Below are positions 20,925 through 53,946 of a DNA stretch of 64,000 nucleotides, piece after piece. The stretch comes from Stratiformator vulcanicus. GTDB taxonomy: Bacteria > Planctomycetota > Planctomycetia > Planctomycetales > Planctomycetaceae. The notes beneath the pieces were generated by a model. The model saw only the letters and a program-made list of their open reading frames with translations, was not told the DNA's origin and ran no database searches. The position numbers and the translations under genes are program-made. How positions within the stretch are numbered: the stretch's first letter is position 1; each line of letters begins with the position of its first letter. The stretch is taken from the NCBI RefSeq assembly GCF_007744515.1, contig NZ_CP036268.1, positions 3,394,712 through 3,458,711 of the forward strand. The letters run 5' to 3'.

Positions 20925-20950
20925 TGACCTGCCCCCGGTAACGGAACCAG

Positions 20951-21868
20951 TCAGTATTTTGAGTGTTCTTTGTTCATTGATCCAGCCCGTTCGGGCTGTG
21001 GAGGCGTAGCCGGAACAGGCCGAACGGGCTGGATCGCCTCCGGAGCCGGCGGCCGGTAGCCCAGTGAGCTGTGCGGCCGGACGGTGTTGTACGCCCGCCG
21101 CCACCGTTCGATCAGCACCTTCGCCTCCAGCAGCGTGTCGAGACGCTCGCGGGCCAGGAACTCGTCCCGGAACTTCCCGTTGAACGACTCGATGAAGCCG
21201 TTCTCCCACGGGCTGCCTGGTTCGATGAACAGCGTCTTCACGCCGACGCGGGCGAGCCACTCGCGGACCGCCTTGGCGGTGAACTCCGGCCCATTGTCGC
21301 TGCGGATGTAGGCCGGGACGCCACGCCGGACGAACAGATCGCTCAGGCGTTCGAGGACGTGCTCGCTTTTGAGACTTCGGGCCACATCGATCGCCAGGCA
21401 CTCGCGGGTGTGTTCGTCGATCAGCGTCAACATGCGGAGCGGCTTCCCGTCGGCCGTGCGGTCGGCCACGAAGTCATAACTCCACACGTGGTCTTTGTGT
21501 GTCGGCCGTAGCCGCACGCACGAACCGTCGTGGAGCCACAGACGCCCGCGTTTCGGCTGCTTTTGTGGCACTTTCAGGCCCTCCCGACGCCAGATCCGCT
21601 CGACCCGCTTGTGGTTCACCGCCCAGCCCTCGGCTCTTAATAACGCGGTCACTCGGCGATACCCGTAGCGGCCATACTTCGTCGCCAACGCGACGATCCG
21701 TCGTACCAGTCGCGGCTCATCCGGCGGTACGTGACGCTCCCGACGTTGCGTGCTCCGGGGCTGGCCGAGGACGTGACAGGCCCTCCGTTCCGAGACCTTC
21801 TCTCGGCCGAGAGAGTCGCGGGCGTACTCGACCGCCGCCGATCGCTTCGCCGGGCTCAGAAGTTTCCC
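20951..21868 (-). CDS. IS3-family transposase OrfB (integrase core)
   Basis: Translation is expected as an OrfAB fusion after -1 frameshifting at 21862-21868. The frame then reads GKLLSPAKRSAAVEYARD, RRACHVLGQPRSTQRRERHV and a complete rve/DDE domain: first D in VWSYDFVADR, second D in RSDNGPEF, E in NGFIESFNGKFRDEFL, ending [19 protein letters not shown] at 21688 could start a shorter product. No stops interrupt it, so it may be active. Confidence 0.88.
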   Translation of the reverse strand, partial: GKLLSPAKRSAAVEYARDSLGREKVSERRACHVLGQPRSTQRRERHVPPDEPRLVRRIVALATKYGRYGYRRVTALLRAEGWAVNHKRVERIWRREGLKVPQKQPKRGRLWLHDGSCVRLRPTHKDHVWSYDFVADRTADGKPLRMLTLIDEHTRECLAIDVARSLKSEHVLERLSDLFVRRGVPAYIRSDNGPEFTAKAVREWLARVGVKTLFIEPGSPWENGFIESFNGKFRDEFLARERLDTLLEAKVLIERWRRAYNTVRPHSSLGYRPPAPEAIQPVRPVPATPPQPERAGSMNKEHSKY

Positions 21869-22137
21869 GACGCCGCCTCACGCAAGATGGCTTTGTCGAG
21901 TTCGGCTTCGGCCAAGAGCTTCTTGAGGCGGGCGTTCTCCCGCTCCATCTCTTTGAGTCGTTTCGCTTGGTCGAGCCGCAGGCCGCCGTACTCCTTCTTC
22001 CACCGGTAGTAGGTCTGCTCGGTCACACCGATCTGGCGGCAAGCCTCCGGAACGGTCTGTCCCTGGGCCAAGGCGACTTCGGCCTCACGCAGCTTGGAGA
22101 TGATCTGCTCTGGAGTGTGCTTCTTCCCTCGCGGCAT
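21856..22137 (-). CDS. IS3-family transposase OrfA
   Basis: This 93-residue HTH and leucine-zipper protein (HTPEQIISKLREAEVALAQG, CRQIGVTEQTYYRWKKEYGG, ENARLKKLLAEAELDKAILR) binds the IS ends. It overlaps the orfB frame at its 3' end. Confidence 0.9.
   Translation of the reverse strand: MPRGKKHTPEQIISKLREAEVALAQGQTVPEACRQIGVTEQTYYRWKKEYGGLRLDQAKRLKEMERENARLKKLLAEAELDKAILREAASGNF
21862..21868 (-). promoter_or_regulatory. -1 ribosomal frameshift slippery heptamer G GGA AAC
   Basis: In the orfA frame the codons are GGA AAC preceded by G. This X XXY YYZ heptamer lies 3 nt before the orfA stop. Slipping back one base gives GGG AAA CTT, which is exactly the open orfB frame. It is therefore the likely control point for making the OrfAB transposase. 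Confidence 0.75.
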
Positions 22138-22215
22138 TGTGCTTTCCCCTTCGGATGCGTCCGTGATCCGTCAAAACTCCGACAGACCATGGACTCGTTC
22201 AAGGGGGGCAGGTCA

Positions 22216-22958
22216 GTTTGGTGAGGTGGTTGACGCCCTACAGGAGAACAATCGCAACGTAGGTGGCGGCAATGTAGATCGCATGGGCGAAATGCTGTTG
22301 GTGCAGGGGTTGGGCCGCACGACCAACATTCCGCAAATTGAAAATATCGTCATCAAAGCGGTGGGTGGAGTGCCCGTGCGTATACGTTATTTCGCAACTG
22401 TGGAAGTCGGCCACGAAATACGATGCGGTGCCGTCACGGCGGACGGCAACGGCGAAGCGGTCATGGGACTCGGCTTCATGCTGATGGGCGAGAATACGCA
22501 TCAATACACCGACGCATTGAAGGAATGTGTCGAAAAAAGCAAAGCGAATCTCCCGCCGGGTATGACGTTGGTCACTATGTACGACCGCACGGAACTGGTC
22601 GATTCGGTCATCAACATGGTTCGTAAGAATCTCTTTGAAGGCGGATTGCTCGTCATCGCCGTGCTGTTTCTCTCTCTTGGCAACCTGCGAGCCGGATTGA
22701 TTGTCGCACTGGCATTTCCACTCTCGATGTTGTTCGCATTCAGCGGGATGTGGCGATTCGCAATTTCGGCCAGTCTGCTGAGCTTGGGAGCGATCGACTT
22801 TGGACTCGTTGTCGATAGCTCGGTTGTGATGGTTGAGAACTGCGTGCGGCATCTGTCGCAGGCCAATCCTCTGAATCGAAGTCGGCTGGAACGGATTCGT
22901 GACGCGACGGTCGAAGTTCGCGGTCCGACCATGTTCGGTGAACTCATCATCATGATCG
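22216..22958 (+). pseudogene. cusA: Internal fragment of CusA/CzcA RND metal pump
   Basis: The frame is open straight from the IS end: FGEVVDALQENNRNVGGGNV, PQIENIVIKAVGGVPVRI, GEAVMGLGFMLMGENTHQY, then transmembrane and central residues such as AFSGMWRFAISASLLSLGAIDFGLVVDSSVVMVEN (the A-D-G-DSSVVMVEN helix with proton-relay acids). Homology stops abruptly after TMFGELIIMIV near 22958. Both ends are missing, so about a quarter of a pump of about 1,040 residues remains. Confidence 0.85.
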
Positions 22959-23012: not shown

Positions 23013-23813
23013 TTACTGAAGATTTCTGGGTTTCTGTGGCAGAGTGCGTGTTACGTTGTCGTCCTTTGCTTTCGGTCCGTGAATCAGGCAATTGGGTCGC
23101 TTTGCGTTGAACGCGGCGATAGCGGCAATGGTGACTTCGGTTCCTGCGACTTCCAACTCGCGAAGTTCGGACAGAACCATGAGTTTTGCGAATCCTGCAT
23201 CTGTGATTTTTGTATCCGACAGGTCGAGGTGCGTGAGGCTCTTTATCGCGATCAGGCTGTCGATGCAATCATCCGTGATGGATGTGCCGCTCAAATCTAA
23301 ATGATGAAGAGTCGTGAGCTTGCTGAGCGACTTGACCGTTGCATCGGTGATCTCGGTGTCCGACACGACCAGCGTGTGAATGGTTTTCCAAGAGCATTTT
23401 GCGAACGTCTTATCGGTGACCGCAGTTCCGGAGACTGAAAGTGTGCGGAGGTTCTTCAAGTCTTGCAGTTTGACAGCTGCCTCGTCGGTGATTTTGGTGC
23501 CGTCGAGGAATAGCCATTTCAATATGTTCAGCCCGCAGATTGTTGAGAGCGTCTTGTCAGTGCTAGACGTTCGCGCGACGGAGAGGAAAACAATCGATTG
23601 CTGATCCTCGATCAAGAAGGCTGAATCGTCAGAGAACCGTGAATCCTTCAGGTTCACATACGATAGTTCGCCATCGATTTCGCGAATATTCTCAGCACCA
23701 AGCGATCGAAGTTGCTCGGCCCGCGACGGGTTCGCATTCTGGGCGTATGCGTGTTGTGCAACAGTAAGGACCATACCGAGCCACAGCAGGCTGACATGTA
23801 GTTGTTTCGTCAT
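23013..23813 (-). CDS. Exported leucine-rich-repeat protein
   Basis: This 266-residue protein has a signal peptide (LLWLGMVLTVAQHAYAQ). At least five cysteine-poor LRRs follow, of the type L-x-x-L-x-L-S-G-T-x-I-T-D (LRTLSVSGTAVTDKTFAK, LHHLDLSGTSITDDCIDSL, LTHLDLSDTKITDAGFAKL). It is the last gene of the carbon-uptake operon, and its ATG (23813) overlaps the preceding stop in an ATGA. LRR domains bind proteins. A structural or envelope role in the system is possible, but its presence may also be incidental. Confidence 0.75.
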   Translation of the reverse strand: MTKQLHVSLLWLGMVLTVAQHAYAQNANPSRAEQLRSLGAENIREIDGELSYVNLKDSRFSDDSAFLIEDQQSIVFLSVARTSSTDKTLSTICGLNILKWLFLDGTKITDEAAVKLQDLKNLRTLSVSGTAVTDKTFAKCSWKTIHTLVVSDTEITDATVKSLSKLTTLHHLDLSGTSITDDCIDSLIAIKSLTHLDLSDTKITDAGFAKLMVLSELRELEVAGTEVTIAAIAAFNAKRPNCLIHGPKAKDDNVTRTLPQKPRNLQ

Positions 23814-24430
23814 CGCATCTCCTCGATGGGGACAAGGTTTCCCACGCGGGGATCGAATGCCAACACCCGCGCAGTTTCGTCGTTGACGATCCACAAATGC
23901 AACTTGAGTCCGTTGGCATCGAGTCTTTCGCGAATGGACGGGTTCGCCTGCAAGTTCTCAAGCTGGAAAATTGCATGTTCGCAGATAACACGTTCGACAT
24001 AGGCTTCACCAGTCAAATCGGGATATGTCGTGTCGACGGCTTTGACCGCTGCAGCGTAGAAGTGTGCTCGAAGATTTCCGGTGTCTGGACCGCTGTTGTC
24101 CTTCAGCCAGTTTGGGATCACGCCGCAACCGAGATGTCCGCAAACGACGGCATGACGGAGATCGTAGTCGTAAAAGCCGACCTCGATTGCCCCGAACAAA
24201 TCGTTGGGTTGGCGACGGTCTGGTGGCGGAACGGATTCACCGATGTGTTGGAGAATGAAAAATCGTTCCGTACCAGCAAATGAAACATTATCCGGGGCAC
24301 AGCCATGATCCGCACATGCGATCATCAGCGTATCGCGTTCGTTGCTGTCGGCAGTCGAGAGAAAATCATTGACGCCGCCGAAGTGATCCGGGTTGAAGTT
24401 GTGCAGTGACTTTTCGAGTTCAATTGTCAT
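23810..24430 (-). CDS. Beta-carbonic-anhydrase-like protein, catalytic Arg missing (copy 2)
   Basis: The 206-residue protein keeps all zinc ligands of beta-carbonic anhydrases: C39 and D41 in IACADHG, and H99 and C102 in VVCGHLGC. Where true enzymes have C-x-D-x-R (the Asp-Arg dyad), it has C-A-D-H-G, with Gly43 in place of Arg. The C-terminal LKLHLWIVNDETARVLAFD matches the usual LHGWVYD strand. It may be a low-activity enzyme, a bicarbonate sensor or a partner subunit. It lies 20 bp after its paralogue and overlaps the LRR gene. Confidence 0.75.
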   Translation of the reverse strand: MTIELEKSLHNFNPDHFGGVNDFLSTADSNERDTLMIACADHGCAPDNVSFAGTERFFILQHIGESVPPPDRRQPNDLFGAIEVGFYDYDLRHAVVCGHLGCGVIPNWLKDNSGPDTGNLRAHFYAAAVKAVDTTYPDLTGEAYVERVICEHAIFQLENLQANPSIRERLDANGLKLHLWIVNDETARVLAFDPRVGNLVPIEEMR

Positions 24431-24450
24431 CGTTCGCTAGTATTCGTTTC

Positions 24451-25080
24451 TCAGGTAGTAACTGAGGCACATGCATCGGATTCGACTGAAACAAAGTCGC
24501 CGACCAAGGCATCGTACGCCCTGATTCGCCTTGTTCCCTCATCGAAAACCCAACCGTGGAGCTTCAATCGACCGTCATTCAGTCGGCTTCTTACGAAATG
24601 ATACTCGATTAGACTCTCAAGTTGCAGGAGGACGTGCTCGCTAAGAAGCAGACCGAATCGTTCCATGTCGAACACATCGTCATAGTGCTTGTCGATGAAT
24701 TCGAGCGTGGGCGTCATCGTCTCACTGCCAATTGCCTTCTTGGAATTTGATGGTACCGCCAACCAATTTTGACAGATTCCGCAAGTCGTGTGCGAGCATA
24801 CGATGAAGTCCGTTACTTCATGTCCAAGCACTGCTTCCTCCAGTGCCTCAACTGTTTCAGAACACCTCTTCGTGAAAGGAGGAATGGCGAACCCCAACCA
24901 CTGAGCGACAAGAAACGACATCGGGTTCTGAACGGGCAGACCATGCGGCAACATGCCGTGGTCAGGACAGCCAATTAGGATGATCGATGGCGTTGGTGTC
25001 TCTTCGCGTCGGCAAAGTTCAGACGCCGAACCAAACCAATGTCGGTCAAAATAGTGAATTCGCCTGGTCAGTGGTTTCAT
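24451..25080 (-). CDS. Beta-carbonic-anhydrase-like protein, catalytic Arg missing (copy 1)
   Basis: This 209-residue paralogue of the next gene has putative zinc ligands C38, D40, H97 and C100 ([15 protein letters not shown]). Again C-x-D-H-G replaces C-x-D-x-R, and GH before the second Cys pair becomes SH. The C-terminal [19 protein letters not shown] fits the family. Its ATG overlaps the SulP stop (ATGA), implying translational coupling to the bicarbonate-type transporter. The shared DHG motif in both copies argues for a distinct subfamily rather than random decay. Confidence 0.75.
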
Positions 25081-27062
25081 TCGTTCGCCTCCGCTGCAAC
25101 TGAAACGAAATGATCTCGTCTGACGACATCGACCGTCTCAACGCAAGCCGTCACTTGATGCTTGGGAAGAACATCGCTGCGAAGGTATGACAATATCGCT
25201 TCGCACGTTTGATGGGACAAGACAATCTCGATCCGAACTTTGGAATTCGCTGATGTAACGCCGCCTTCCAGTTCACGACGCCCGGCTCCGCTGCATGGTT
25301 GCGATGTGAAACCTGTTGCCCCCAGTGCCACAAATTGTTCTTCCAGCGATTGCTCGATCGCCTCGTCAGCAATGACCGTCAGCCGTCGCATGGTTGCCAA
25401 TCCGCCCTTTCTAGCCGCATGGGGATTGTCGGCCAGCGGTTGCATGGCATCGAGACCGCGAACTTCAAAAGTCAGTCCTTTCTGCTCGAAGACGCGTTCC
25501 ATTTCTTCCAGCTTCTCCATCACACTGTGATCAACAAGCTTCGTACTGGATACGTCGACGATCAGGTTGCGCTTTTGAACCAATCCGATGTCTTCGATTT
25601 GGCGTTTGAATGGAATCCAGTTGCTAAACACTGCGGATTCACGCGCCAAGATGAGGCTGGTGTTGTCGTTCACTTTCTGAACCTCGATGTAAGGTTTGAA
25701 CAACGACTTGATGGGCACGCCGTTCGCGACGTGGATCACCATCTTCAGAATGATGCCAGCAGCGACACCGATTAGCAGGTCGGTCGCTAGGACAACGACC
25801 AACGTCGTGACGAAGATCGCCAGTTGTTCCTTCCCGATTCGCCATACGTGAATGAACTCGGTCGGATGTGCGAGTCGGTATCCGGTGTAGACCAGCATCC
25901 CCGCCAATGCCGCGAGTGGGATCTCATGGAGAATCGTGGGAATCAACGCTACGCAGGCGAGCAGGAAGATGCCGTGCCACAAATCAGCGAACCGCGTTCG
26001 GGCTCCGTTGTCGATATTCGCCTTGGAACGCACGATCTCTGAGATCATGGGAAGCCCGCCCACCATCGACGCACAAAGATTGCCAACACCGACCGCAACC
26101 ACGTCGCGATTCATGTTTGTCTTGCGCTTCCAAGGGTCGAGCAGGTCAACTGCCTTGGCACTAAGCAGTGATTCAAGGCTGCCGATAATGAAGAACATCA
26201 TCACCCACTTCCAAGCCTTCATCTGAGCCAACGCGGAAAAATCAGGAGACGTGATGTCATCAAACATGCCAAAGACTCGGTCGGGCATCTTCACCAGATA
26301 CTGTTCACCGAGTTGATAATGATGTTCCTGCAATGTGTAAGAGTGTTCGTGAAGCAAGTCGAAGCCGAAGCCCATCGGCACGGTTACCAGTAGCACAACC
26401 ATGGGCGATGGAATTTTCTTCAGGATGCCAACACGTTTCGCGGCAAGCGGCCAGTAGAACATGATCAGAATGCTCACGATGCCGATTGCTGCGATCGCCG
26501 GATTGGCTTCCATAATGTAGTGCGGCATTTCTTTGAGCATTTCCAGCGGTTCACCCCCGGCTGATACGCCAAGAGCCACTGGGAACTGCTTGATGATGAT
26601 GATGACACCAATCGCTGCCAGCATTCCATGGACGGCTGAGATCGGGAAGAACTCGCCGAGGATTCCGCCGCGAAACAGGCCGAACAGAATTTGAATGACC
26701 GCCGCTGCGACACCGACCGCCAACGCAGCTTTGTAGGCCATCAAATCGGCGTCGGTCCATCCGCCGGTCATTCCGTCGCCGCCGAAGTCTTCGATGCAGC
26801 CAATGGCAATGACGATCAATCCTGCGGCCGGACCTTTGATGGTCAGCTCGCTGTTACTGATGAACGTTGTCAGGACCGAACCGATGATTGCGGTGAAGAT
26901 GCCTGCAATCGGCGGATAACCGCAGGCCAGCGAGATACCGAGACACAGCGGCAATGCGATCAGGAAGACCAGCAATCCGGAAATGATATCTTGCTTAAAG
27001 TATTTGGCGAAGCCGGAGGCGTTGCCGCGTGGTGTCTCTTCGTTTTCCATTTTGTCGGTCAT
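25077..27062 (-). CDS. SulP anion (bicarbonate) transporter with STAS and PII/SbtB-like domains
   Basis: This 661-residue membrane protein has the SulP core ([41 protein letters not shown], the [23 protein letters not shown] helix and [16 protein letters not shown]). A short STAS domain follows ([20 protein letters not shown]). The last 104 residues (558-661) look like a PII/SbtB fold: [56 protein letters not shown]. SulP members such as BicA import bicarbonate with sodium or protons. A fused PII-like domain would sense nucleotides or bicarbonate. ATG 27062 lies 4 bp after the previous stop. Confidence 0.85.
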
Positions 27063-27066
27063 TTTT

Positions 27067-28533
27067 CTATTCGCTATCTGTATTGTCGGTGAGTGTTTCA
27101 GAGTGAGCCGAGTGTGATCCATCGCTCCCGTCGGAGTCGTCTGCTTGTTCGACACTGCGATGGTCGAGCAAGGCTTGGGCGGCGTGGTAGCGTGATTGCA
27201 CACCGGGTTGAGGAATCAGCCCGCCGCCAATGATCAGAACGACCATCACGAGAATCGTGATGCGTTCCGATGGGCGGCAGTCCATCTTGACGGTCGAAGT
27301 GTGCCGTATTCCGGTGAAGACGTGGAAGTAGGCTTTGACAATCGCCACTCCGTTCATCGCTGCTGCGACGACCACAGCCAATCCAACGAACGGGTAAACT
27401 TCGACCGCTCCTTCGACGAGAAGTTCTGTCCCAATGAATCCGACCGTACCGGGAAAGCCGATAGAAGCTAATCCGGTCAGCAGGAACATCGCCGCAAGAA
27501 ACGGCGTGTGTTCGTAGAGCCCGTGAAAGTTGTCGAGCGTCAGGCGTCCCGTGCGAGCTTCGACGCAACGCAGGGCGAGTCCGAAGCCGAGCAGAGAGAT
27601 TCCAACGCTCAGCCAAACGCAGAGTGCTCCAGCGAGTCCAATCGGTGTGGCCATTTCCAGACCGACGAGCACTAATGATGAATGGCTGAGAAATAGGTAG
27701 CAGAAGAATCGCCGCGAGTCCCGTTGCACCAATGCCATGCCAGCGGCGTAGATCGCAGTCACCAGCGACAGGATCGCGATGCTCTGCAATGCCCAAGATG
27801 GTGCGATCGGAAATACCAGTCGCATCACCGCGTAAGCTCCGGTCATCGGAGTCACAAAGAGTAATGCGGTCCCAAACGTCGCCTTCTCAAACAAGTCGGT
27901 CATCCAGCAATGCAGCGGACAGACTCCACTGCGAAGTAATGCTCCGGCAGTCAAAAGGCACCCGGCAAGGATCGGCGGATTAGCCGACGTAGCTGTCGCC
28001 CCGGCAAGGGCCTGTCCTGCGACCAACAGCGTCACAAACAATGCCATGTGGATCACAAAGACCCGCGTGCATTGGCCTCGCTTCCGTAGTTCCAGCCACG
28101 GCGGAATCGTGGCGATGGCAAGCAAGGTAATGATCAACCACGGACTACGGCACGCAAGCGTTGCCAGCAGGATCGATTCCGACACGAGCGTCCAATGAAA
28201 CGAAAAGCGATTGCTCTTGGTTCGCAGCGTCGTCATCTCGGTGGTCAAGTACAGAAGTGCCCCAAGTGGTAACAGCGGGGCACTCAACTCATCGATGACG
28301 AACACATCACGATGAAAGATCGACTGAAACAAGTCCCAATGATCGTGAGCCTCAAACGTTCCGAGCATTGCAAAGTCGAGCCATTCGCCGATTGCACAGA
28401 CGAGCGTAACAGCACACACGATGGTGCAAACTGTCCTCGCCCGGTCGCGGTTCTTCAGCAACGAAACCCAGATTCCTCCGACCAGCGGCAACAGCACAGA
28501 GAGTTCAAGCCAAGGGAGATGAAGTTCTGACAT
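27067..28533 (-). CDS. NuoM/DabB-like proton-pumping membrane subunit (second copy)
   Basis: This 488-residue polytopic protein is of the NADH-quinone oxidoreductase/Mrp antiporter family (PF00361 type). Conserved-like segments are [60 protein letters not shown] and [23 protein letters not shown]. The usual lysine in the KSGxxPFHxWLP motif is replaced by Arg ([12 protein letters not shown]). With DabA such subunits power CO2 hydration and vectorial bicarbonate accumulation. Its start overlaps the upstream stop by one base (TGATG). The C terminus is hydrophilic and Ser/Asp-rich. Confidence 0.8.
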
Positions 28534-29921
28534 CAGGCCACGTCCTCCAGTGAATCGCTGTAGGGCGAAACTTGATCGGATTCACGAGACGGGCCGCCGG
28601 ACAGCAGGTTCGTCCAGCGTCGCTCCATACCATCGCACCATCGAAACACCGCAGTGAATTGTCGCACAACGTAGTTATCAATCATTGCGTCGAGGTATCC
28701 GCGATGCAGTGCGAACCGATAAAGCCAGAGCTGAAAGCCAGTGGTGGTTTTCGCGGAATTGACTTCGTCACCAGTGAGATGCTCGCCCACCGCATCTTCG
28801 AGCATTTGATGATCCTTCAGTACGGAAGGGGCTCGCAGCAGTTGAAGCGTTCGCAGGCAGGCGTGACCAATCATGTGAATCAGAGCGATGTACCGCAGGC
28901 CGAGACCAATCTCGATGGTGATGATTCCGACTTGAGTCAACGAAGCGAAAGCCAATGCGTTTTTCACGTCGCTTTGCACCCGCGATGCGAGTGTTCCAAA
29001 GATGGCGGAAATCAATCCCAAAGTGATGACGAGGATTCGCAGCGGTAGTGAAATGTCCAGCAACGGGCTGACTCGCAACAACAGGTACGTTCCCAAGTGA
29101 ACGGACAAAGCACCGTAGAAGACGGCACTCGAAGGAGTTGGCCCTTCCATTGCTCGCGGTAACCAGCCAGAGAACGGCACCATGCCAGACTTTCCAGCCG
29201 CCGCCAGCAGTAATAGCGACCCAACGGCCAGAGCCGACCACGAGCTAATTGCGGCAACACCTTCCGGCCACGGTCCGGAACCCATCAGCCCATCGAAGTC
29301 ACCAGCTCCCGTCAGATGGTGCATCGTCAAAGCCGCCACGAGAAACGCGGCATCGGCTAAGCGATAGGTTGTCCACACACGATGTCCGTTGCGGACGGGC
29401 CCCGGTCGCTCGTGGAAATACGCGACAAGTAATGCTGAAGACAGCCCGACCAATTCCCAGCCGAAGAAAAGTGTTTCGATGGTGCCCGCCAGTGACGAAA
29501 CGATCATTCCCAACAAGAACAAGGCATACTGCAGGAAGAATCTCGCGTAGCCCTTCTCGCGATGCAGATAGACCGAAGCGAAGGCTCCCACCGTGCCGCA
29601 CAGCACAAAAGACAGCATCGCAAACGGAACGGACAGGCGATCGAACACAAACTTCAAGTGAAAATGAAAGTGTTCCTGCTCGATCGACACCCAATTACCG
29701 AGTTCGATCGGAACGTGACGGAGACCGGTCGCAAGCATCAGCACTAGAATCGCGACTGATGCCAAGAGGCCAATCACTACGCCTGCTCTTGTCAGCCCGG
29801 CTTGAACGCTTTCGCTCAATTTGAAGCCACAAAGCAGAGGCAACCCGAGAGCGGCCAGCAACACGGCGGGACTGGCAACGACAACAAGCCCGAGGAATTG
29901 CAGTACGGATTCAAGCGTCAT
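28533..29921 (-). CDS. dabB: DabB/NuoL-like proton-pumping membrane subunit
   Basis: The 462-residue protein shows the NuoL-type core: [22 protein letters not shown] (pump Glu), [43 protein letters not shown] (channel Lys and PTPxSA), and [26 protein letters not shown]. Its directly coupled partner is DabA, whose stop it overlaps by ATGA. In Dab complexes DabB couples the cation gradient to DabA's carbonic-anhydrase-like site. I assign it as DabB because it is adjacent and has a NuoL-like Glu/Lys set; which of the two membrane subunits contacts DabA is inference. Confidence 0.82.
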
Positions 29922-32900
29922 GACGACACCTCCGTTTCTTCAATCGAAAAGAACGGTCGGTGATCACGTTCGCCTTCGTAGCACTCCAGCGAAGAAGAGA
30001 CTTGCCTCAGCTCGCCGTCACTCTTATCGAACGGTTCAAACTTGCCGTTGCGAAACACTTGAACCTGTGATGTTTCTGCGTCGATGACAGCCAGATGTGA
30101 CCAGCCGCCTTGGCATAGCCTCGCGATCCCTTCGTTACGCTCCATGATCGACAGCATCGCTTCTGGCGTCGTTTCAATCAGGAACAGAATCCGAATCGGT
30201 TCATGAATCTCGACCATCTGCTGATACAGCCCGGTCCGCAGGTCGCTGGATGTTCCTTCCATCACGCCAAGCAGCGACACGATGTTGTGCGGAAGCTTGG
30301 AGCCCGATCCGTAGTTCTTGTAGTCAACGCAGGAAAAGTAGTATTCGAGATTGATTCCGGCACACACGGGTATTGCGGCTGAAAGAATGCGAAGCAGGAT
30401 CGAATGTTCTTCATCGTCCTGAGTCGGATCGTAGGACGTGAGGAACGCTCGACGATCGAGAAACAGCCCACGTGACCAGTCTCGGCGTCCAACGACGCAC
30501 AACGCGTTGGTCGCGTGGTTGTATTCCGGTCGAGCCTGCGAAATATCCTGTGCTCTCCCTTCGACGTGACGGAGGGCGTCCTTGGGTGTGATGTTCAGCG
30601 GTGCGGAAACAAACCGTCGGCAACGTTCGTGTGCGTTCCTGCGACGGGCTTCTTCGATCGCATCGCGAGCGGACTCGAAGTCTTCGCGGTGTGACGACGG
30701 AAGCTGGTCCAGATCGTAGAACACGACCGAGTCATCACACGTGTTGTGATAGGCTCCTACGAAAGTTGTGTCATTTGGAATGGTGATGCCTTGTTGAGCG
30801 ACAAGTGCTCGAACTCGCCAATCGTTTGCCATCTCGGCAAACGCACGAGCATTCGGTCCACCGCGTTTTCCCGCACAAGCACCGCAGCAATAAGCGGACT
30901 CATGAGGGTTGTTTAGGCTGGATGAACCATGACCGCAAACGATAAACAATCGTGAAAAGTCTTCCGACTTCGTTAGGCCAATATCTTGCAACAGGCGAAT
31001 GACAACATCGGCCATTTCGTCGATGGAGTAACCAATGTGCCCATTCGTTGGTCCAGGTGGTTCGGCATGACGTTCCAATTGCAGTTGCGTGACTGGAGGA
31101 GGCTGCAGCAACGAACCAAAACGTCGCCGGATTCGAGCTGTTAGGTGAGGGAAGAGAACACGAGCAACGAGTGGGACAGTCGCCAGCGACCCCACGATGC
31201 CCGCAAAGATGCCACCAAGAAACGTACGGCTGCGAGTGTGAAACAAGTGGCCCGCAAGTCCCAGACGACGACGCAACTCTGCCCGCCCCTGATGGACGCC
31301 TTCAAACGTGTATCCAACATCTTCCTGCACGTAATGATCCGGTGTGATGACTCCCGGACAAAGCGGCTTATAGAATCCATCCGCTGCTCCGCGATAGTAG
31401 ATCGCCACGGCAAAGAAACCGGCGGCTCCGAAGGTTTCACAGCGTGGTTGCACTTCCTCCAGATGTCGACGAAACGATTCTTCTCGATCGTCTATGCACG
31501 TCACGATTTGAAAGTCCGGACGGTCGCCCCACGGTAATTCAATCTCACGTCTTCGTGCTGCATGCTTTGAGAATGCGTTGATCGCGGCGTGGTGATACTT
31601 GCGTTCGTATGCTTCGTGAAAGATGCGATGGCGTTCGATGCCGTCGAAGACTTCGACTTCCTCAGAAAGCTGCTTCCACTCAGCTTCGCTAAGTTGCTGC
31701 AGCTCCAATGGCGTCCAGCCAAGCATCTGTGCGACCTGAAACAGCAGGAACGCTCCCCGTTCACGGTTCAACGGAGCGGGATCGCTCAACCGTTTCTGTG
31801 CTGATTCGACAATCGTTGCGAGGGATTCGTACTCACCAAACTCGCCCGCCCCAATTTTTCGGATGGCATGCTTCTCCAGAATCAACTGAACGGCAAGCAT
31901 TCCAACCAGCGACCCCTTTGGAATCGAATGCACCACCCAGTCCACACCGGACTCCAGTTGCCAGATCATTCCGGCCCAGCCCCCAAGGGCGAGCAGCGAC
32001 TGTGCGATGAATTCCTCTCGACCGGACTCAGCAATTCCGAGCTCGCGCAGAGAGACTTCGATGGACGCCTCTGCTGTCGCGTTGCTGTTTCGCAGAAACG
32101 ACAGTTCGTCGGGCAATCGTTTGAGCCAACGATCAAGCCCGCGAGAGCTTTCCGAATACAGCGATCCGAAGGACTCAAAGAACCCCTGATCGCGATTCGG
32201 CAGCAACCAATCGGAGTAACCCTGATCGACGTAGGCTGCACAGAATCGGATCAGAACTTCGTGAACGTGTCGGTCGATGTCTTCGCCGGTTGCATGAAGC
32301 AGCAAGTCACGCGGACGATCGTAGGTTGGTGGCAAACTCGCTGGTGTGATTGAACTCACGCCATTCAGGCAGGTCCGCCACAGTAGATGTAGTGAGAATG
32401 CTTCCCACGCAGAGTCAGACCAGTTGTCGATGTTGGGGCCGAACTTTTTCAAGAGGCCATTTTGGTCGTCGGTTGCTTCCGGCCTGCCGGCCGAATCCTG
32501 AAGCCACTTCTTAGCGGCGGACACGATGCGAGACCGATTGATCTGTGTAGTGCGTTCGCGAAATCTCTGCAGGGCATCGGTTTCCGCGACGACCCAACGA
32601 AGCTCTGCGTCTGGCCCGATATGCAGTGGGTGCCGCAGCATCGCATAACGAATCTCGCATCGCGTTCCAAGTCCGTTGATCTGCTCGCCTGCTCGTTCCC
32701 CGAGATCGTCCTTGATGACTGCTTCCAAATCCGAGTCGGTGATCCGACCCTCGGCGTAGAGCTGGCGATACTCTTGCTCCGTGAAATAGGGTGCAGCACC
32801 GTATCGGGCGAGCCCTGATTTGACTGCCTCATGAAACGACTGTTCCTCGAATGCGTGTAGCGTGTTGTGATGAACGAAGACCTCAATCGGCCCTTGGGCA

Positions 32901-32998
32901 GGCAGCAGATGAGCCGCATGCTCGACCATGTGCCGCAGCGATTCTGCGGCGTGGTCGTTCAGCGAGGTCGGATCGTCTTCGAGTTCTGCGGTCGGCAC
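29918..32998 (-). CDS. dabA: DabA, DUF2309 inorganic-carbon accumulation subunit
   Basis: This roughly 1,026-residue soluble subunit has the Dab zinc site. C501 and D503 lie in [13 protein letters not shown], which resembles the beta-CA C-x-D-x-R with R505. H690 lies in [16 protein letters not shown] and C705 in CCGAC. The 15-residue H-to-C spacing equals that of H524/C539 in the characterised Halothiobacillus enzyme. [21 protein letters not shown] is the conserved N-terminal block. The frame opens at ATG 33094, but the sigma-54 promoter at 33099-33113 would start the RNA near 33087, so I use GTG 32998; ATG 32929 is another option. Confidence 0.9.
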
Positions 32999-33098
32999 GG
33001 CGTGCCCCAGTCGTTGGTTGAAGGTCAGCAAATTGGCGTTCCATGCCGGGCCTCGGGCGTGCCGCAGGACTGTTCGGATGGGCTTACCGTTCACAAAC

Positions 33099-33113
33099 GC
33101 AAGCCGTGTGCCA
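33099..33113 (-). promoter_or_regulatory. Sigma-54 (RpoN) promoter of the dab operon
   Basis: On the minus strand the bases read TGGCACACGGCTTGC. This is an exact match to TGGCAC-N5-TTGC with the obligatory GG-N10-GC spacing. Transcription should begin about 12 nt downstream, near 33087, leading into dabA. An NtrC-type activator is encoded 5 kb away on the same island. Confidence 0.75.
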
Positions 33114-33267
33114 TTCGCGTTCGAGCGGCAACGTCCTCGATGGCGTCAGAGTGCGGTTTCAGACGAAATCCGCGAGCCATCCGTGATATTGCGGCGAATG
33201 GACAAGGTAAGAGCCGTGGGGCAGCAAAAATAAGCCCCAAGCGTTACAATCGAAGCCAAACGGACGT

Positions 33268-33279
33268 GCAAATGTTTGC
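33268..33279. promoter_or_regulatory. Dyad GCAAA-TG-TTTGC in the dab/CA divergent region
   Basis: A short inverted repeat lies between the sigma-54 promoter and the carbonic anhydrase gene, where an enhancer-binding site would be expected. Its function is inferred from position only. Confidence 0.3.
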
Positions 33280-33296
33280 AGGCCAAGTGCAATACG

Positions 33297-33315
33297 CTGC
33301 ACTCGCTGGGTGCAG
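33297..33315. promoter_or_regulatory. Inverted repeat CTGCAC-N7-GTGCAG before carbonic anhydrase
   Basis: Six-base perfect arms with a seven-base loop end 21 nt before the carbonic anhydrase ATG. It could be an operator or a leader hairpin. Confidence 0.35.
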
Positions 33316-33336
33316 TGAAAATAGGAATCGAATCCA

Positions 33337-33999
33337 ATGCAGAAACTCGTCGACGGAATCCACAAATTCCAATCGGAATCATTCAGTCAGGATCAGAAGC
33401 TGTTCGAGACGCTGGCCGATGGCCAGAATCTACTGGCTCTGTTCATCACTTGCTCGGATTCGCGTATCGACCCGAACCGGCTGACGCAAACGAAGCCCGG
33501 CGAATTATTCATTCAGCGAACCGCCGGAAACATCGTTCCTCCGTACGGCAGCGTCTTCGCGGGGGAGGCATGCACGATTGAGTACGCGGTGATGGCTCTT
33601 GGAATCAAAGACATCATCATCTGTGGCCACTCGCACTGTGGAGCGATGGGGGGGCTACTTGATCCGGATTCCATCGAACAAATGCCGGCGGTCAAGGAAT
33701 ATCTGAAGCACGCGGAAGCAACACGTCGGATCGTCAACGAAAATTACAAGCACCTGACCGACCCAGCCAAACGTCTGACGCTGACGGTTGAAGAAAATGT
33801 CTTGGTGCAACTCGAAAGCCTGAAGACTCACCCGTCAGTTGCCGCCGCAGTCGGACGGGGCGACCTGAAGCTTCACGGTTGGGTTTACAAGTTCGAGACC
33901 GGCGAAGTCTTCGGTTACACTCCGGAGAAGAATGCATTCCTGCCGGTCGAAGATGTCGAACCAGCCACGCCGGGTGACCGAACACTGCCTCCGATTTAG
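33337..33999 (+). CDS. Canonical beta-carbonic anhydrase
   Basis: The 220-residue enzyme has all catalytic parts: C39, D41 and R43 in [10 protein letters not shown]98 and C101 in CGHSHCGAM, and [11 protein letters not shown]. It interconverts CO2 and bicarbonate. It diverges from the dab operon across a regulatory region of about 240 bp. Unlike the two DHG-type paralogues at the other end of that operon, it should be fully active. Confidence 0.93.
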
Positions 34000-34941: not shown

Positions 34942-36339
34942 TCAGAAGTCCACTTGAGCCCGCATGGCAAAGATGTCGGCGTCGCTGTCGCCGTTGACGG
35001 GGTTGTCTAGGAAGGCGTGGATGTAATTGAACTGGAACTTGGTGAACTTGTTGAGATACCAGTTCAGACCAAGCGTCGACGTGTTGAGCCGTCCGCCGCG
35101 AATATCTGCGTTGTTCAAATCGAGCATAGACCAGCGAGCGGCGATCTCCCATGCACCGCAGCCGCATTCGCCGAAGTCGTTGGTTGGCACCACCCGTCCC
35201 AGCACTCCTGCCTTACGGTTATAGGGACGATGCTCGCCCGTCAGGATGTAACCGGCCTGAACCGACACCCCTGAAAAGCTAACAGTTGGCCCTGCGTTGC
35301 GATTGACGATCGCGTGGATGAATTCCGACTGTGCATGAAACGAGCCGCTGGTCGTAGCCAACTCCGCCCCGAACAGATGCGACTTTTTCGTCGCGATGAC
35401 ACCCGTATCAACAAACGGCGGAACGGCTGATGGGACTCCGGCGGGGACGAATGCAGCTCCACCGGTTTCTGCGATGAAGAACTCCGGCTGACTGCGATAC
35501 CGCACTGCATCGTTTGCCGGGTCGATCAGGCTGTACGCTCCGCCGATGTGGACGACTCTACCATTGGCATCCTCGAAAACTACCTGAGTCAACCGCGTGG
35601 CCAATCCGTACCCTCCGTCGTCACCGATTTGACCACCGAACACATCGGTTGGGAAACGAAAGCCTGACAAGGCCCACGTTCGACCAGCGTCTTCGTCTGC
35701 ACCAGACGTCATCGCTCCAATCTGTCGAAACGGTAGGAAAGCGAACGGCAATCCGCGTTCAATGAAAGTCAACTCCTTCACACTTGTTAGTCCACCAAGA
35801 CCAATCGGATGTCGAAACTGACCAACCTTCACGTCGCCAAGACGCGTATCACGAACTTCCAGCCAGACGTCCATGAAGCTGGGGCGACCGGGAAAACCAA
35901 AGTCGAACTCAACCATGTAGCCCACGTTTTCGGCCACATCGCCGGTTGCCGCAAGCCTTGCTCGACGAAAGTCCGCACCGTCCTGAATGTCGCCCACAGC
36001 GATTCGATTGGCCGCGTTCTGATGAATCCAACCGGCGTCGGCCTGAAAGAATCCGGTCATCTTGACCGCTGGGTACTTCGACGCATCCACGATGGGATTG
36101 TCCAACGTGCTGGAGTCATAATCGCTCGTCCATAGCGACGCATGCCTAGACGGAAGATCCGTCGGTGTCGCTGATGTCATAGATGCTGGCGTCGCTTGTC
36201 GCAGTGTAGCGACTTCCTCTTCGAGTGCCTGAATCCGAGCTTCGCAAGGTGTAATTCCGGCGGTCACCTGAGCCTGCACCGTTGCGGATGCCCCAGCGTA
36301 AAGGGTGATAAAAAGCATTAAAGTGATCTGTCGAAACAT
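34942..36339 (-). CDS. OprO/OprP-type outer-membrane porin
   Basis: This 465-residue protein has a signal peptide ([20 protein letters not shown]) and a short coiled coil ([17 protein letters not shown]). A phosphate-selective-porin-like barrel follows ([47 protein letters not shown]) and ends in the aromatic-terminated strand MRAQVDF typical of outer-membrane barrels. It imports anions. Given its neighbours it may admit bicarbonate, which is inference. ATG 36339 is favoured over 36351. Confidence 0.82.
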
Positions 36340-36579
36340 CGGGTCATCCATGAATAGCCGGTGAATCTAGCAAAATCGGTAAGACCGGTTGTACCCATAA
36401 GATCGGCACGACCAGCATAACGAGTTCACCCATTCACTCTGTTCTGGCCCACAACCTTCCTCGAACCATGTCGAAGCATCCAGGATTCAGTACCCGGCGT
36501 GCAGGTATTTGCGGTTCGCCTGCAAGATGTCGCACAGATTCTGTCTTCAATTAGGTCAACCAGCCATGTCTCCAATCAA

Positions 36580-36765: not shown

Positions 36766-36836
36766 TATGCTCGTCTTCTGGTTTGTTGAGGAAGTTGTAT
36801 TGCGTGTCGCATAGGACAATTATCTCTTTTCGTGTT

Positions 36837-36851
36837 TGGACAGTAATTTGC
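36837..36851 (+). promoter_or_regulatory. Sigma-54-like promoter of the two-component operon
   Basis: TGGACAGTAATTTGC shows GG-N10-GC with a good -12 element (TTTGC) and a -24 element with two substitutions. The kinase ATG lies 75 nt downstream. It suggests autoregulation of the sigma-54 activator. Confidence 0.5.
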
Positions 36852-36926
36852 GAAAGTTCGTATTATTGCCAACGGTATTCCAATTTCTGCGACATCACGC
36901 CACGTCTTGCCAGAGACATTCCATTT

Positions 36927-38297
36927 ATGTTTCGAGTTCATACCGAAGAGACGGGAAAATTTTATTGGCTTGCGGTTATTGGCCTGTTGCTAATGAGTGC
37001 CGCTGCGCTGGGGGTAACGATTTGGGTGATGGTCGACTTTCTCCGTGAACAGGAAATCGTCGATGAGCTGATTCGCAAACTGCCGGACGATGCCACGAAG
37101 TCGGCGGAAGTACTGGCTGGCGAACTTCGCTGGCAGTTTCGGCTCAGCATGCTGGTCGTACTGAATCTGGTCGTCACGGGATTTGCCGTCGTTCTGTTGT
37201 GGCGTGCGTACCGCTCGTCACAGGAATCGCTACGTGACATCAAAGCGCTTGCAGGTGACATCCTCAGCAGCATGGATCAGGCAGTCATCACAACCGACGC
37301 CGATGGCAACGTCACCAGCATCAACCGTCGCGGGTTGGAGTTGGTCGGTCCACAAGAGGAGTGCGTTGGGCACCCGTTATCGATGTTGTCGGACAAGCTT
37401 CCACTTGACGATTTTCGCACCCAGTGGCAAGTTGAAAAAAACGTCGCGATGACGCGAGACTTCACTATTGACGGGAACGGCTCTGAACGGACGCTTCGTG
37501 CATTCTGCCAAACGCTCAGCGACCATGAAGACAACGAGATCGGCAATGTTTTGCAGCTTCGTGACATCACGGAGCGCCTGCTGATCGAAGATCGAATGCG
37601 GAGAATGGAAAGATACATGGGGCTGGGAACGCTGGCGGTGGGCCTTCACCATGAGATCAAGAACCCGCTCGCAGCGCTTTCACTGCACGTCCAGTTACTC
37701 GAAGAAGAAATCGACGGCGGCAACACGTCAAATGAAACGTGGCATATGCTTGGCGTCATTAAGACTGAGGTTTCTCGCATTGGCGGCGTTCTGGAAGGCT
37801 TCCGCGACTTCGCATCGATCGACCGGTTAAACCTCGGACCGGTCGATTTGCAGGAACTCATCAAGCGGCAGGTCGAGTTGGTTCGCCCGACTGCGCTACA
37901 GCATCAGGTCACGCTCGACACGCAGATTCCAGTAGACGATTTGCCTACCATCTTCGCCGACCAAGTCCGATTGGAACAGGTTTTGCTCAACTTGCTGCTC
38001 AATGCGCTGGATGCGATGCCCGATGGTGGGTCTGTCATGATCAAGCCATTCCATTCAGGCGAAATCGCGGGAATCGAAGTGACTGATTCTGGTTCTGGAA
38101 TTCCCACTTCACTGCACGACAAGGTTTTCGACGCATACTTTACGACCAAGGGTTCCGGTACCGGTCTGGGACTTGCAATGTGCGACAAGATCATGCGGCA
38201 ACACGATGGCAGTCTTGCGTTTCGATCCTCCAGCAAGGGAACGACTTTTGAAATGACTCTGCCAATCCGTCCAACGAACACCGATCAATCTGAGTAG
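36927..38297 (+). CDS. NtrB/ZraS-like sensor histidine kinase
   Basis: The 456-residue kinase has two membrane spans (about residues 12-38 and 75-97) enclosing a small periplasmic domain of about 35 residues. A PAS domain follows (SMDQAVITTDADGNVTSINR), then a HisKA box with the phospho-His in GLHHEIKNPLAALSLHVQLL, and an HATPase with N (LLNLLLNALDAMPDG), G1 (VTDSGSGIP) and G2 (GSGTGLGLAM) boxes. ATG 36927 is chosen because upstream residues are low in coding quality. It is followed 5 bp later by its response regulator. Confidence 0.9.
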   Translation: MFRVHTEETGKFYWLAVIGLLLMSAAALGVTIWVMVDFLREQEIVDELIRKLPDDATKSAEVLAGELRWQFRLSMLVVLNLVVTGFAVVLLWRAYRSSQESLRDIKALAGDILSSMDQAVITTDADGNVTSINRRGLELVGPQEECVGHPLSMLSDKLPLDDFRTQWQVEKNVAMTRDFTIDGNGSERTLRAFCQTLSDHEDNEIGNVLQLRDITERLLIEDRMRRMERYMGLGTLAVGLHHEIKNPLAALSLHVQLLEEEIDGGNTSNETWHMLGVIKTEVSRIGGVLEGFRDFASIDRLNLGPVDLQELIKRQVELVRPTALQHQVTLDTQIPVDDLPTIFADQVRLEQVLLNLLLNALDAMPDGGSVMIKPFHSGEIAGIEVTDSGSGIPTSLHDKVFDAYFTTKGSGTGLGLAMCDKIMRQHDGSLAFRSSSKGTTFEMTLPIRPTNTDQSE

Positions 38298-38302: not shown

Positions 38303-39661
38303 ATGGATGAAGAATTTCACATTCTGATCGTTGATGACGAACCCAATATTCGTTCGGGGCTGGCTAAAGGCTTGGCAAAAGAAGCGAGCCGAATTGAAAC
38401 CGCTGGAACTGTCAACGAAGCGTTAGACAAGTTCGATGCCGGTCGTTTTCAACTTGTCATCGCCGATGTGAGGCTCCCCGGAGACCGAGATGGGTTAGAG
38501 CTGGTGTTACTCGTCCAGCAACGCAAACCCGGCACAACAGCCATTGTCATTACGGCTCACGGGACAGTTGAAACAGCCGTCGATGCAATGCGACGCGGTG
38601 CGTTCGACTTCATTACCAAGCCCGTCGACCTGAATCTGATCCGTCAGCAAGTCGCTAAAGCACGGGAACACTATCAACTGCAAACAGAGAATCGGCAACT
38701 CAAGGAAAAACTTGCCGAAGTCGGCGAAGTCTCCGGAATTGTTGGCAACTGCCGAGCCCTCAAGGAAGTGCTGACTCAGGTTCGGCAGGTTGCAGACACG
38801 GACGCGACCGTCCTGATTCAGGGCGAGAGCGGAACTGGAAAGGAACTCATCGCCCGAGCGATTCACGACCTGAGTACGCGTTCGACAGGCACGTTTGTCG
38901 CAGTGAATCTCGGGGCACTCCCTGAATCACTTCTTGAAAGCGAACTGTTCGGTCACGAGAAGGGTTCGTTCACTGGTGCATCACGACGAAAGCCGGGTTG
39001 TTTTGCACTCGCGAAATCCGGCACACTGTTCCTCGACGAGATCACTGAGATTCCCGCCAAGAGTCAGGTCGATCTATTACGAGTCTTGGAGACCGGCCAG
39101 TTCGCCCTTGTCGGTGGCGAGGAAACTCTTGAATCCGATGCTCGTATCGTGTCCGCAACCAATCGTGACGTCCAGCAACTCGTTGAGGACGGCGCTTTCC
39201 GCGAAGACCTTTTCTATCGGCTAAACATCGTCCCAATCGAAGTACCGCCACTGCGACAACGTCGCGACGATATCCCACTTCTCGCCAGTCACTTCCTGAG
39301 CCACTTTTGTTCCCGCCATCGCCGCGAGGAAAAGAAGATTGATTCCGATGCCATGAACGTCCTTATTGCAGCAAGCTGGCCCGGCAACATCCGTCAGCTC
39401 CGCAACGTCATCGAACGACTGGTCGTCACCGTGGCGGGCGACGCAATCACACCCACTGATCTTCCCAGCGACCTCAAGTCAGCCACCGCATCCGAGTCGA
39501 CCGAATTCCTCTCTCTCGCTGAAGTCACAGAAGCCGCCGAGAAAACCGCCATCCAATCCGCACTCGCCGCCAACGACTGCCACCGAGAACAGACCGCAAA
39601 AGCCCTCGGCGTCAGTGTAAGAACTCTTCACTACAAGATGAATCGGTACGGACTGCACTAA
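38303..39661 (+). CDS. NtrC-family sigma-54 response regulator
   Basis: This 452-residue activator has a receiver (acid pocket DDE, phospho-Asp D55 in IADVRLPG). Its AAA+ domain has Walker A GESGTGKE, the sigma-54 contact loop GSFTGA (usually GAFTGA), Walker B GTLFLDE and the R-finger region REDLFYRLNI. A Fis-type HTH closes it (QTAKALGVSVRTLHYKMNRYGL). Because a sigma-54 promoter sits before dabA, this protein is the likely activator of the carbon-uptake operon. That link is inference. Confidence 0.9.
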   Translation: MDEEFHILIVDDEPNIRSGLAKGLAKEASRIETAGTVNEALDKFDAGRFQLVIADVRLPGDRDGLELVLLVQQRKPGTTAIVITAHGTVETAVDAMRRGAFDFITKPVDLNLIRQQVAKAREHYQLQTENRQLKEKLAEVGEVSGIVGNCRALKEVLTQVRQVADTDATVLIQGESGTGKELIARAIHDLSTRSTGTFVAVNLGALPESLLESELFGHEKGSFTGASRRKPGCFALAKSGTLFLDEITEIPAKSQVDLLRVLETGQFALVGGEETLESDARIVSATNRDVQQLVEDGAFREDLFYRLNIVPIEVPPLRQRRDDIPLLASHFLSHFCSRHRREEKKIDSDAMNVLIAASWPGNIRQLRNVIERLVVTVAGDAITPTDLPSDLKSATASESTEFLSLAEVTEAAEKTAIQSALAANDCHREQTAKALGVSVRTLHYKMNRYGLH

Positions 39662-45743: not shown

Positions 45744-45788
45744 GCAAGCGGACTTTAATGGTGCCTATGCTACGCTGCTCAGACTGCC

Positions 45789-46667
45789 TTGCCAAAGAAA
45801 TTCCGCACGAAGATCGGCCCCCGCGATATTGAAATACTGGAAGCGATCGACCGCTGCCCGTTAACCGCCGCTCAACTAAAATGGCTCAGCAATACGTTCG
45901 AAATGCCGTTTCGCGATGAGCATAATCTGCGTCGGCGTTTAAGACTTCTGGGCGCTTCCGGCTTAATCCGCTGTTGGCCTTACGCTTTGGTCGGTGACGG
46001 CCGCGCCCCGCGCTACTGGAAGCTCACCCGCGACGGCTATCGGTTGCTCTACGGCGAGGATGCCCCGCTTCCTCGACGAAGGCACTTCGAAGAGATCGGC
46101 CACGGCCGGCATCATCACACGCACGCACTCACCCAGCTCGTCGTGCGATTGATCACGGCCGGACAGGACCACGGAATTCGAATGACACACTTCGCCCGTG
46201 AGAACAGTGTCCGGCTGGAGACCGGGTCCTTTACCGTCTATCCCGACTGCGGATTCCGATTGGAGACACGAGAGGGCAAGTCCTATTGCTTTCACGTCGA
46301 ACTCGATAACGGCTCCGAGCGGGTCCGCACCCGACAGGATGTCGAGTCGATCGAGCGGAAACTCCGAGCCTACGACGCCCATCAGTCGCAGTTCTCGGCG
46401 GACGATCCCGATCGCTACATGGTCCTGTTCGTGACGACGCGGAGTGAAGCCCGACTCGATCATGTGTTCGCACTGGCGAACGACGTGATGCGGAACCGCC
46501 AGCGGACCGTGTTTTTGGGATGCGGATTGGAAACGCTGATGCGGCATGATCCATACCGAGAAGCAATCTTCCGCGATCACCGCGGGCTAAAGCGAACGAT
46601 CCTTCCGTTAAACCAAGTCGCTTCGGAAAAGCCGACGGAACGCATGACGGCTCCGGCTTCGGCGTGA
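45789..46667 (+). CDS. Replic_Relax-family protein (copy 1)
   Basis: This 292-residue protein has an N-terminal winged helix ([40 protein letters not shown]) and [13 protein letters not shown]-terminal part has [29 protein letters not shown]; this PD-x-E-x-D spacing is reminiscent of PD-(D/E)xK folds. It belongs with replication-relaxation proteins of plasmids and ICEs, which may nick or bind element DNA. It precedes a TraG-like ATPase. The start is TTG 45789. Confidence 0.65.
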
Positions 46668-49436: not shown

Positions 49437-49496
49437 ACCGCCAGTTTATCAGACAAGCTATGAAGTCGTGAGCGATCACCAAACTGGAATAGAAAC

Positions 49497-49533: not shown

Positions 49534-49551
49534 GCCCGACAGTCGACCAGC

Positions 49552-49647: not shown

Positions 49648-49693
49648 CACACTTCTCCGTATCGAGGGTCCAGTTGCGGGTTTCCCAGATCAG

Positions 49694-49716: not shown

Positions 49717-49766
49717 TAGCGGCCGCCCTACGCTCCCGCAATGAAATTCCGGGGTAGCTGGGCTCA

Positions 49767-53943: not shown

Positions 53944-53946
53944 CCG

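Follow-up and report, generated by a model that had tools for sequence, protein, structure and literature searches.

Gene content of the cluster

A stretch of 64,000 nucleotides from the genome of the planctomycete Stratiformator vulcanicus (contig NZ_CP036268.1, positions 3,394,712 to 3,458,711 of the forward strand; referred to here as the window) was analysed for a gene cluster that combines a Dab system with a SulP carrier. The source genome is a single 5.23 Mb contig, and coordinates given below are those of the window unless the genome is named. Between positions 23013 and 33999, the listing of open reading frames (ORFs) confirmed seven ORFs on the minus strand and one divergent ORF on the plus strand. 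The minus-strand genes encode DabA, two antiporter-like proteins (termed here DabB1 and DabB2), a SulP carrier, two carbonic anhydrase (CA)-like proteins and a leucine-rich repeat (LRR) protein. An operon of this content had been predicted for this region from its sequence (the original prediction), and its genes were all found to be present by the ORF listing and a Pfam scan. That a Dab-type complex shares its operon with a SulP carrier, next to genes for a histidine kinase and a response regulator, was equally borne out. Very probably, the cluster serves to fill the cell with bicarbonate.

DabA and its membrane subunits

DabA (29918..33094, minus strand; 1058 amino acids as called) is of a long planctomycete type and matched PF10070 at 780 bits (expectation value (E) of 2.7e-234), with positions 1-746 of the 747 of the profile being covered. 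Its residues C533, D535, R537, H722 and C737 align with C351, D353, R355, H524 and C539 of DabA2 from the DAB2 complex of Halothiobacillus neapolitanus (PDB 9rd0). The Cys2His zinc site and Asp-Arg dyad were found in 108/108 aligned long DabA rows, the window protein included (103 of the rows being distinct). The finger glutamate, at the column of DabA2 Glu444, was absent from the same 108 rows, which have Gly, Ala, Thr, Ser or Val in its place, and in seven of them another column of the finger is acidic. The counts leave out L091 and L106, two long-type rows that are truncated and likewise have Gly at the 444 column. At the site of DabA2 Leu658, His was identified in 97 and Asn in 11 of the 108 long rows. 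Glu444 is kept in DabA2, in all six plasmid-borne relatives and in 9/11 short-type planctomycete DabA rows, the exceptions being L031 and L070, an odd row in which the dyad Arg is missing as well. Excerpts of the description of DAB2 report that changes to Glu444 abolish its activity, with exchange of Leu658 being tolerated (PMC13144422).

A tree was constructed by a quick method from the window protein, 25 randomly chosen full-length long rows and all shorter rows. The long DabAs formed one clade (32 rows; support of 100 in the Shimodaira-Hasegawa-like approximate likelihood ratio test) apart from the clade containing DabA2, in a tree for which long branches were flagged and whose long clade includes L070. 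A grouping of DabA outside the functional Dab clades had been named beforehand as speaking against a Dab function; the window protein does fall in a clade separate from that of DabA2, but with its zinc site intact.

Downstream of dabA lie the genes of the two membrane subunits, both of which contain Proton_antipo_M of Pfam (E 1e-38 and 6e-27). Residue numbers such as His260, Lys347 and Ser316 refer to the comparison with DAB2, and the planctomycete protein termed DabB2 differs from DabB2 of H. neapolitanus. DabB1 (28533..29921, minus strand; PF00361/PF00662) is a NuoL-like subunit comprising transmembrane segments (TM) 1-11 only. Its AlphaFold2 model (mean pLDDT, a per-residue confidence score, of 80) matched E. 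coli NuoL across some 370 columns using Foldseek and showed no TM12-15, with TM11 being followed by one long helix (408-441) that is too little hydrophobic to count as a membrane segment. Past position 370, DabB1 proteins were found to have mostly 86-88 residues (range 75-139, among the 90 rows reaching there), compared to 156-195 in 14 classical DabBs (six plasmid-borne and eight short-type planctomycete). Retained in DabB1 are the ion-pair residues Arg182/Asp185/Lys235 and the half-channel residues Ser256, Lys310, His339 and His343. A Glu was identified at the NuoL-E144 site in 93/94 rows (one gap), in contrast to none of the 14 classical DabBs, all of which have His260 and Lys347. In DabB1, Tyr replaces His260 in 91/94 rows (three gaps), Arg replaces Lys347 in 90/94 (four gaps) and Ala replaces Ser316 in 86/94.

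DabB2 (27067..28533, minus strand; PF00361, 95 bits) is an additional, NuoM-like subunit. Its residues 9-457 were aligned with the NuoM model TIGR01972 at 139.9 bits, under the model cut-off of 263.8, and due to this extent of alignment, the possibility of DabB1 and DabB2 being halves of one split DabB was rejected. PF00361 matched 40/40 DabB2 members, with the match being confined to the C-terminal part in the case of the window protein. The TM5 Glu was found in none of 89 rows and the TM7 Lys is replaced by Arg in 87 of these. In TM12, a Glu occurs one column after NuoM E407 in 84/89 rows (four gaps, one Asp), with a further Asp or Glu four columns beyond it in 83/89. The residue patterns of the two subunits suggest that DabB1 keeps the inner half-channel, while DabB2 keeps charges where the outer one would be. 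From this we infer a proton path that is split over DabB1 and DabB2, in which DabB2 would stand in for the finger Glu of DabA.

Gene order and distribution among planctomycetes

A profile search for long DabA returned 554 confirmed relatives, of which the best 80 were kept; the titles of these 80 loci are planctomycete, except for four given only as "bacterium" (L081, L083, L090, L092). Together with loci from other scans, 110 long DabA loci were obtained, corresponding to 105 distinct loci, of which 84 were testable with at least 3.3 kb downstream and 21 were dropped for short flanks. The original prediction had proposed a search of DabA (DUF2309) neighbourhoods for the same gene order, and this search found DabA-DabB1-DabB2 in 79 of the 84 testable planctomycete loci. 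Order was counted by gene end, as stop-to-stop DabB1 frames overlap DabA (counting by ORF start gave 64/84). No DabB2 was found within 6 kb at any of 11 short-type DabA loci. Four genomes (G015, G023, G033, G048) hold both types, the short with B-A order and the long with A-B1-B2.

SulP was identified in third place, following DabB2, in 30 of the 70 distinct loci with at least 5.5 kb downstream, with a PII tail in 23 as called by a profile derived from seven fused proteins. The pairing of Dab and SulP, previously thought unusual, thus recurs within the phylum. In an even draw of 294 phylum genomes, 20 had a DabA of at least 700 bits with the long-type profile (38 at E 1e-50), and due to this low number the long-type system is patchy across the phylum.

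SulP carrier and carbonic anhydrase-like proteins

The SulP protein (25077..27203, minus strand; likely start at an ATG near 27062) matched Sulfate_transp (PF00916) at 189 bits (E 1.4e-55). Its Glu344 aligns with an Asp of 6ki1, which we take to be BicA with this Asp in its ion site. A C-terminal PII-like domain (residues 605-697; 25113..25391, minus strand), missed in the original prediction, was identified with PF00543 at 37.9 bits against a gathering cut-off of 25, and resembles TTHA0516 (2cz4, E 1.2e-9). Residues 509-591 may be STAS-like, with weak similarity to a STAS structure (E 0.011) and with Pfam STAS models matching one to two of seven fused members at E 0.01. Across these seven aligned members, the PII-like domain is highly variable, and as only five match P-II of Pfam at E 0.01, it is divergent at the sequence level. 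SulP proteins aligning through the PII end were found in 13 of the 294 phylum genomes, eight beside a long DabA, four not and one indeterminate. In three of the four genomes with no Dab neighbour, a Pfam scan found no P-II at E 0.01 (two genomes) or P-II below the cut-off (one genome). The four SulP proteins with this end but without Dab neighbours (L170-L173), from genomes of one other family, each adjoin a dCache-domain protein, and one of them is also near a Pro_CA_2 protein.

The genes following SulP encode CA-like protein 2 (24451..25080, minus strand; PF00484, E 1.8e-13) and CA-like protein 1 (23810..24430, minus strand; PF00484, E 7.2e-16), in which CPDHG and CADHG, respectively, replace the CxDxR motif. 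Both possess the Cys and His-x-x-Cys zinc ligands, with the dyad Arg replaced by Gly. Among seven distinct CA-like proteins scoring above 200 bits with the CA-like profile (two from the window and five from related loci, with L048 and L137 counted as one locus and L095 excluded at 86 bits, it also being without the Arg), the dyad Arg is Gly and the zinc ligands are kept in all seven, with the dyad Asp kept in five. This replacement of the catalytic Arg suggests that the two window proteins are probably catalytically inactive pseudo-enzymes. Their best solved relative is the beta-CA 5swc, presumably CcaA of Synechocystis, from which the window-type proteins differ by this Gly.

The divergent gene (33337..33999, plus strand) encodes a canonical beta-CA (PF00484, 157.7 bits, E 3.7e-46) with zinc ligands and Asp-Arg dyad intact (CSDSR). 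The cluster had been described as holding three CA-type proteins, which is correct for their Pro_CA matches but not for their presumed role as enzymes, two being without the catalytic Arg. Three further Pro_CA matches are present in the genome (the divergent gene, another at 2470178, and a third at 2013179 that is fused to SulP), all with CxDxR. The SulP-fused one (L073, genome positions 2013179-2013697) is an example of a SulP carrier fused to a beta-CA elsewhere in the same genome.

Regulation and host carbon metabolism

A perfect sigma-54 (-24/-12) promoter motif, TGGCACACGGCTTGC, was identified upstream of dabA (33113-33099, minus strand), ending 4 nt before the called start. It is the sole zero-mismatch match in the window and one of seven perfect sites in the genome. 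As the motif ends so close to the GTG at 33094, the true start of DabA is probably somewhat downstream of it. Upstream of long dabA genes, sites with at most one mismatch were found in 20/92 distinct regions, compared to 1.3 in shuffles and 2/92 on the opposite strand; they occurred in 10/13 regions with a regulator gene upstream and in 7/55 without, none of these counts being corrected for shared ancestry. RpoN was found in the genome, and an NtrC-family (sigma-54-dependent) response regulator (38303..39661, plus strand) lies 5 kb from the operon, making sigma-54 control of the operon likely. The regulator gene is preceded by that of a PAS/HisKA histidine kinase (36783..38297, plus strand; identified with Pfam), and relatives of both are situated beside the operon in five other loci (L081, L088, L064, L062, L050).

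A search of the genome for the RuBisCO large subunit, proposed in the original prediction along with other carboxylases, did not find one, and a link of the operon to RuBisCO was rejected. One phosphoenolpyruvate (PEP) carboxylase and one PYC_OADA protein were identified. With these carboxylases present and no RuBisCO found, the earlier suggestion of bicarbonate supply for anaplerosis is plausible.

Proposed function and alternative explanations

The cluster may be viewed as a loading station for inorganic carbon, in a planctomycete in which no RuBisCO was found. Scarce bicarbonate would act through the kinase and the NtrC-type regulator to turn on the operon from the sigma-54 promoter. DabA-DabB1-DabB2 would then carry out CO2 hydration at the cytoplasmic face, yielding bicarbonate, with ion flow making the reaction one-way. 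DabB1 would provide the cytoplasmic half-channel, and the TM12 acidic residues of the NuoM-like DabB2 the outer half, which in the known DAB2 is supplied by the finger Glu of DabA. SulP would import bicarbonate or a similar anion, with the PII-like domain that it carries acting as the gate, and the Arg-less CA-like proteins would be zinc-binding, non-catalytic sensors or partners. The bicarbonate gained would be used in PEP and pyruvate carboxylation and in biosynthesis. Of this scheme, the content and order of the genes, the patterns of residues and the promoter motif were observed directly, and the activity and its direction, the divided channel, the gating, the signal for induction and the role of the pseudo-enzymes were deduced. 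This explanation as a whole, namely bicarbonate loading through a divided channel together with a PII-gated SulP and pseudo-CAs, is the one favoured here, with modest confidence. A bolder form, in which Planctomycetota possess a separate class of energy-coupled CA with an ion path over two half-degenerate complex-I-type subunits, a PII-gated SulP and zinc-binding pseudo-CAs that report bicarbonate, is put forward tentatively, at less than an even chance.

A number of observations weigh against the favoured explanation. Residues important in DAB2 are altered in DabB1 (His260, Lys347 and mostly Ser316), and a Glu placed at position 151 halved the growth yield of DAB2 according to excerpts of the same description (PMC13144422); both could also mean different or lost ion transport. 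As the TM12 Glu of DabB2 is one column off NuoM E407, the equivalence of the two is not certain. The finger region of DabA was modelled at low confidence (block pLDDT of about 45-63), and a fold search with DabA was uninformative, with none of 185 matches at E 0.001 or better and no 9rd0 among the 50 matches listed (the library ends at 2026-04-08). DabB1-DabB2 were absent downstream of long DabA in five of the 84 testable loci (L139, L130, L154, L068, L152; three titled Schlesneria). The SulP protein reached 105 bits against the cut-off of 880 of the NCBIfam BicA equivalog and thus fails it, bicarbonate or a related anion being its putative substrate. For sigma-54-like sites with at most two mismatches, the window showed no surplus (60 versus 58.6 expected), nor were perfect sites enriched genome-wide (7 versus 10 in a reversed control), and the argument for sigma-54 control rests on the position of the motif and its recurrence upstream of related dabA genes. 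Two CxDxR Pro_CA genes are present in addition to the divergent one, so that the need for Dab as a source of bicarbonate is not obvious. Furthermore, MpsAB, which supplies bicarbonate for anaplerosis in non-autotrophs, rarely coexists with CA according to parts of one report (PMC8567241), and this host has both.

The cluster could instead encode an ordinary Dab complex, in which DabA-DabB1 would work like DAB2 via other proton-path residues and DabB2 would be an accessory or assembly subunit. The intact zinc site and the retained ion-pair and half-channel residues of DabB1 are in keeping with this, as is the third, small membrane protein that DAB1 of H. neapolitanus is also described to have (PMC13144422, in part). 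Such a complex would, however, have to function without the finger Glu on which DAB2 activity depends, this residue being missing throughout the long type, and with a DabB1 lacking TM12 onward; the association of DabB2 with the long type and its absence beside the short type also speak against a merely ordinary complex, and this explanation is considered unlikely. A sodium or pH system, meaning a cation/bicarbonate symporter or pH-homeostasis device rather than a vectorial CA, is less probable again and is thought doubtful. Mrp has two antiporter-like subunits, as does this operon, and DabB1 keeps the NuoL gating Glu lost in DAB2; MpsAB has moreover been proposed as a Na+/HCO3- symporter (PMC13144422, in part). 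Against this, none of the long DabA rows deviates at the catalytic CA residues, a constancy that would be needless for a pure antiporter, and some of the loci link the operon to beta-CA and SulP.

The operon had also been described as laterally mobile, and it could have arrived on a nearby mobile element. An IS3-like insertion element with 12-bp inverted ends, TGACCTGCCCCC, was identified at 20925-22215, and conjugation-like genes occur at about 47-59 kb of the window. However, the IS3-like element is situated between CusB/HlyD-like and partial ACR_tran (RND) genes, a broken efflux locus that is separate from the operon, and a repeat search in 20800-22300 placed its ends outside the operon. 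PF10070 is present in 38/59 relatives, the gene order is conserved as given above, and the beta-CA, kinase and regulator neighbours are common to other planctomycetes, including G057 of another family (L064), so that operon and regulator recur together. DabA matched 123 plasmid records, of which not one reached 60% identity or 80% coverage. The operon is therefore not visibly mobile, the claim of mobility is not upheld and arrival on a mobile island is regarded as highly improbable.

Comparison to known systems

The favoured explanation, bicarbonate loading by an altered Dab core, was compared to systems already described. DAB2 resembles the planctomycete system in its NuoL-like partner and in its DabA homologue, whose Cys2His zinc site and Asp-Arg dyad are identical. 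DAB2 differs in its separate DabA clade and in a DabA length of 870 amino acids versus 1058, while the planctomycete system is distinguished by its A-B1-B2 order, the missing Glu444, the exchange of Leu658 for His or Asn, a truncated DabB1 and the extra NuoM-like subunit. The planctomycete core is a version of this CO2-trapping machine that appears to compensate for the loss of an essential residue by the extra membrane subunit. We know of no second full antiporter-like subunit or SulP in MpsAB, the Staphylococcus homologue of heterotrophs. Like the proposed system, MpsAB is a complex used by heterotrophs for bicarbonate supply (PMC8567241, in part), with the difference that sodium coupling has been proposed for it (PMC13144422, in part). 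BicA and SulP-CA fusions similarly link a SulP carrier to CA genes (PMC6458275, in part), but the window SulP is below the BicA equivalog cut-off and has a fused PII-like domain. SbtB/CPII proteins resemble this domain in being PII-like and tied to a presumed bicarbonate carrier, and differ in being separate proteins that act on SbtA rather than fused to SulP. Free PII proteins adjoin Dab genes in two actinobacterial plasmids.

In excerpts of the DAB2 report, the coupling of proton flow to one-way CO2 hydration in Dab is still a hypothesis, with the finger Glu as part of the proposed coupling point (PMC13144422). A large natural clade without this Glu and with an extra antiporter-like subunit would be a ready-made test of that model. 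The cluster also supplies an example of a SulP carrier to which a PII-type domain is fused; according to parts of a 2021 review (PMC8438413), SbtA was the sole case in which a regulatory protein had been seen to control bicarbonate uptake. No recognisable account of the planctomycete Dab variant or of a SulP-PII fusion was found in open-access papers, judged mostly by listing, which is weak evidence of absence. The findings further suggest that some of the planctomycetes, a group generally regarded as heterotrophic, invest in active bicarbonate loading.

Other genes of the cluster and its surroundings

The last minus-strand gene encodes the LRR protein (23013..23813), with LRR models matched in ORF 23013-23894, and is joined to the gene of CA-like protein 1 by an ATGA overlap (read at 23813-23810). 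An LRR match was found at only one of 80 loci scanned (L084, 71 bits), and the protein was rejected as a member of the module since it is not conserved.

The region 44523-58560 contains the conjugation-like genes, including two for ATPases that resemble TrwB/TraG-type coupling proteins, together with a weak match to a Toprim domain, and is a possible integrative element. The neighbour in L081 of the canonical beta-CA type is 86% identical to the divergent beta-CA of the window. A Porin_O_P-type outer-membrane porin (34942..36351, minus strand; PF07396) was identified as a recurring neighbour of the Dab operon, with matches of more than 400 bits in seven loci (the window, L081, L082, L092, L094, L110 and L116), and is a possible entry route for anions.

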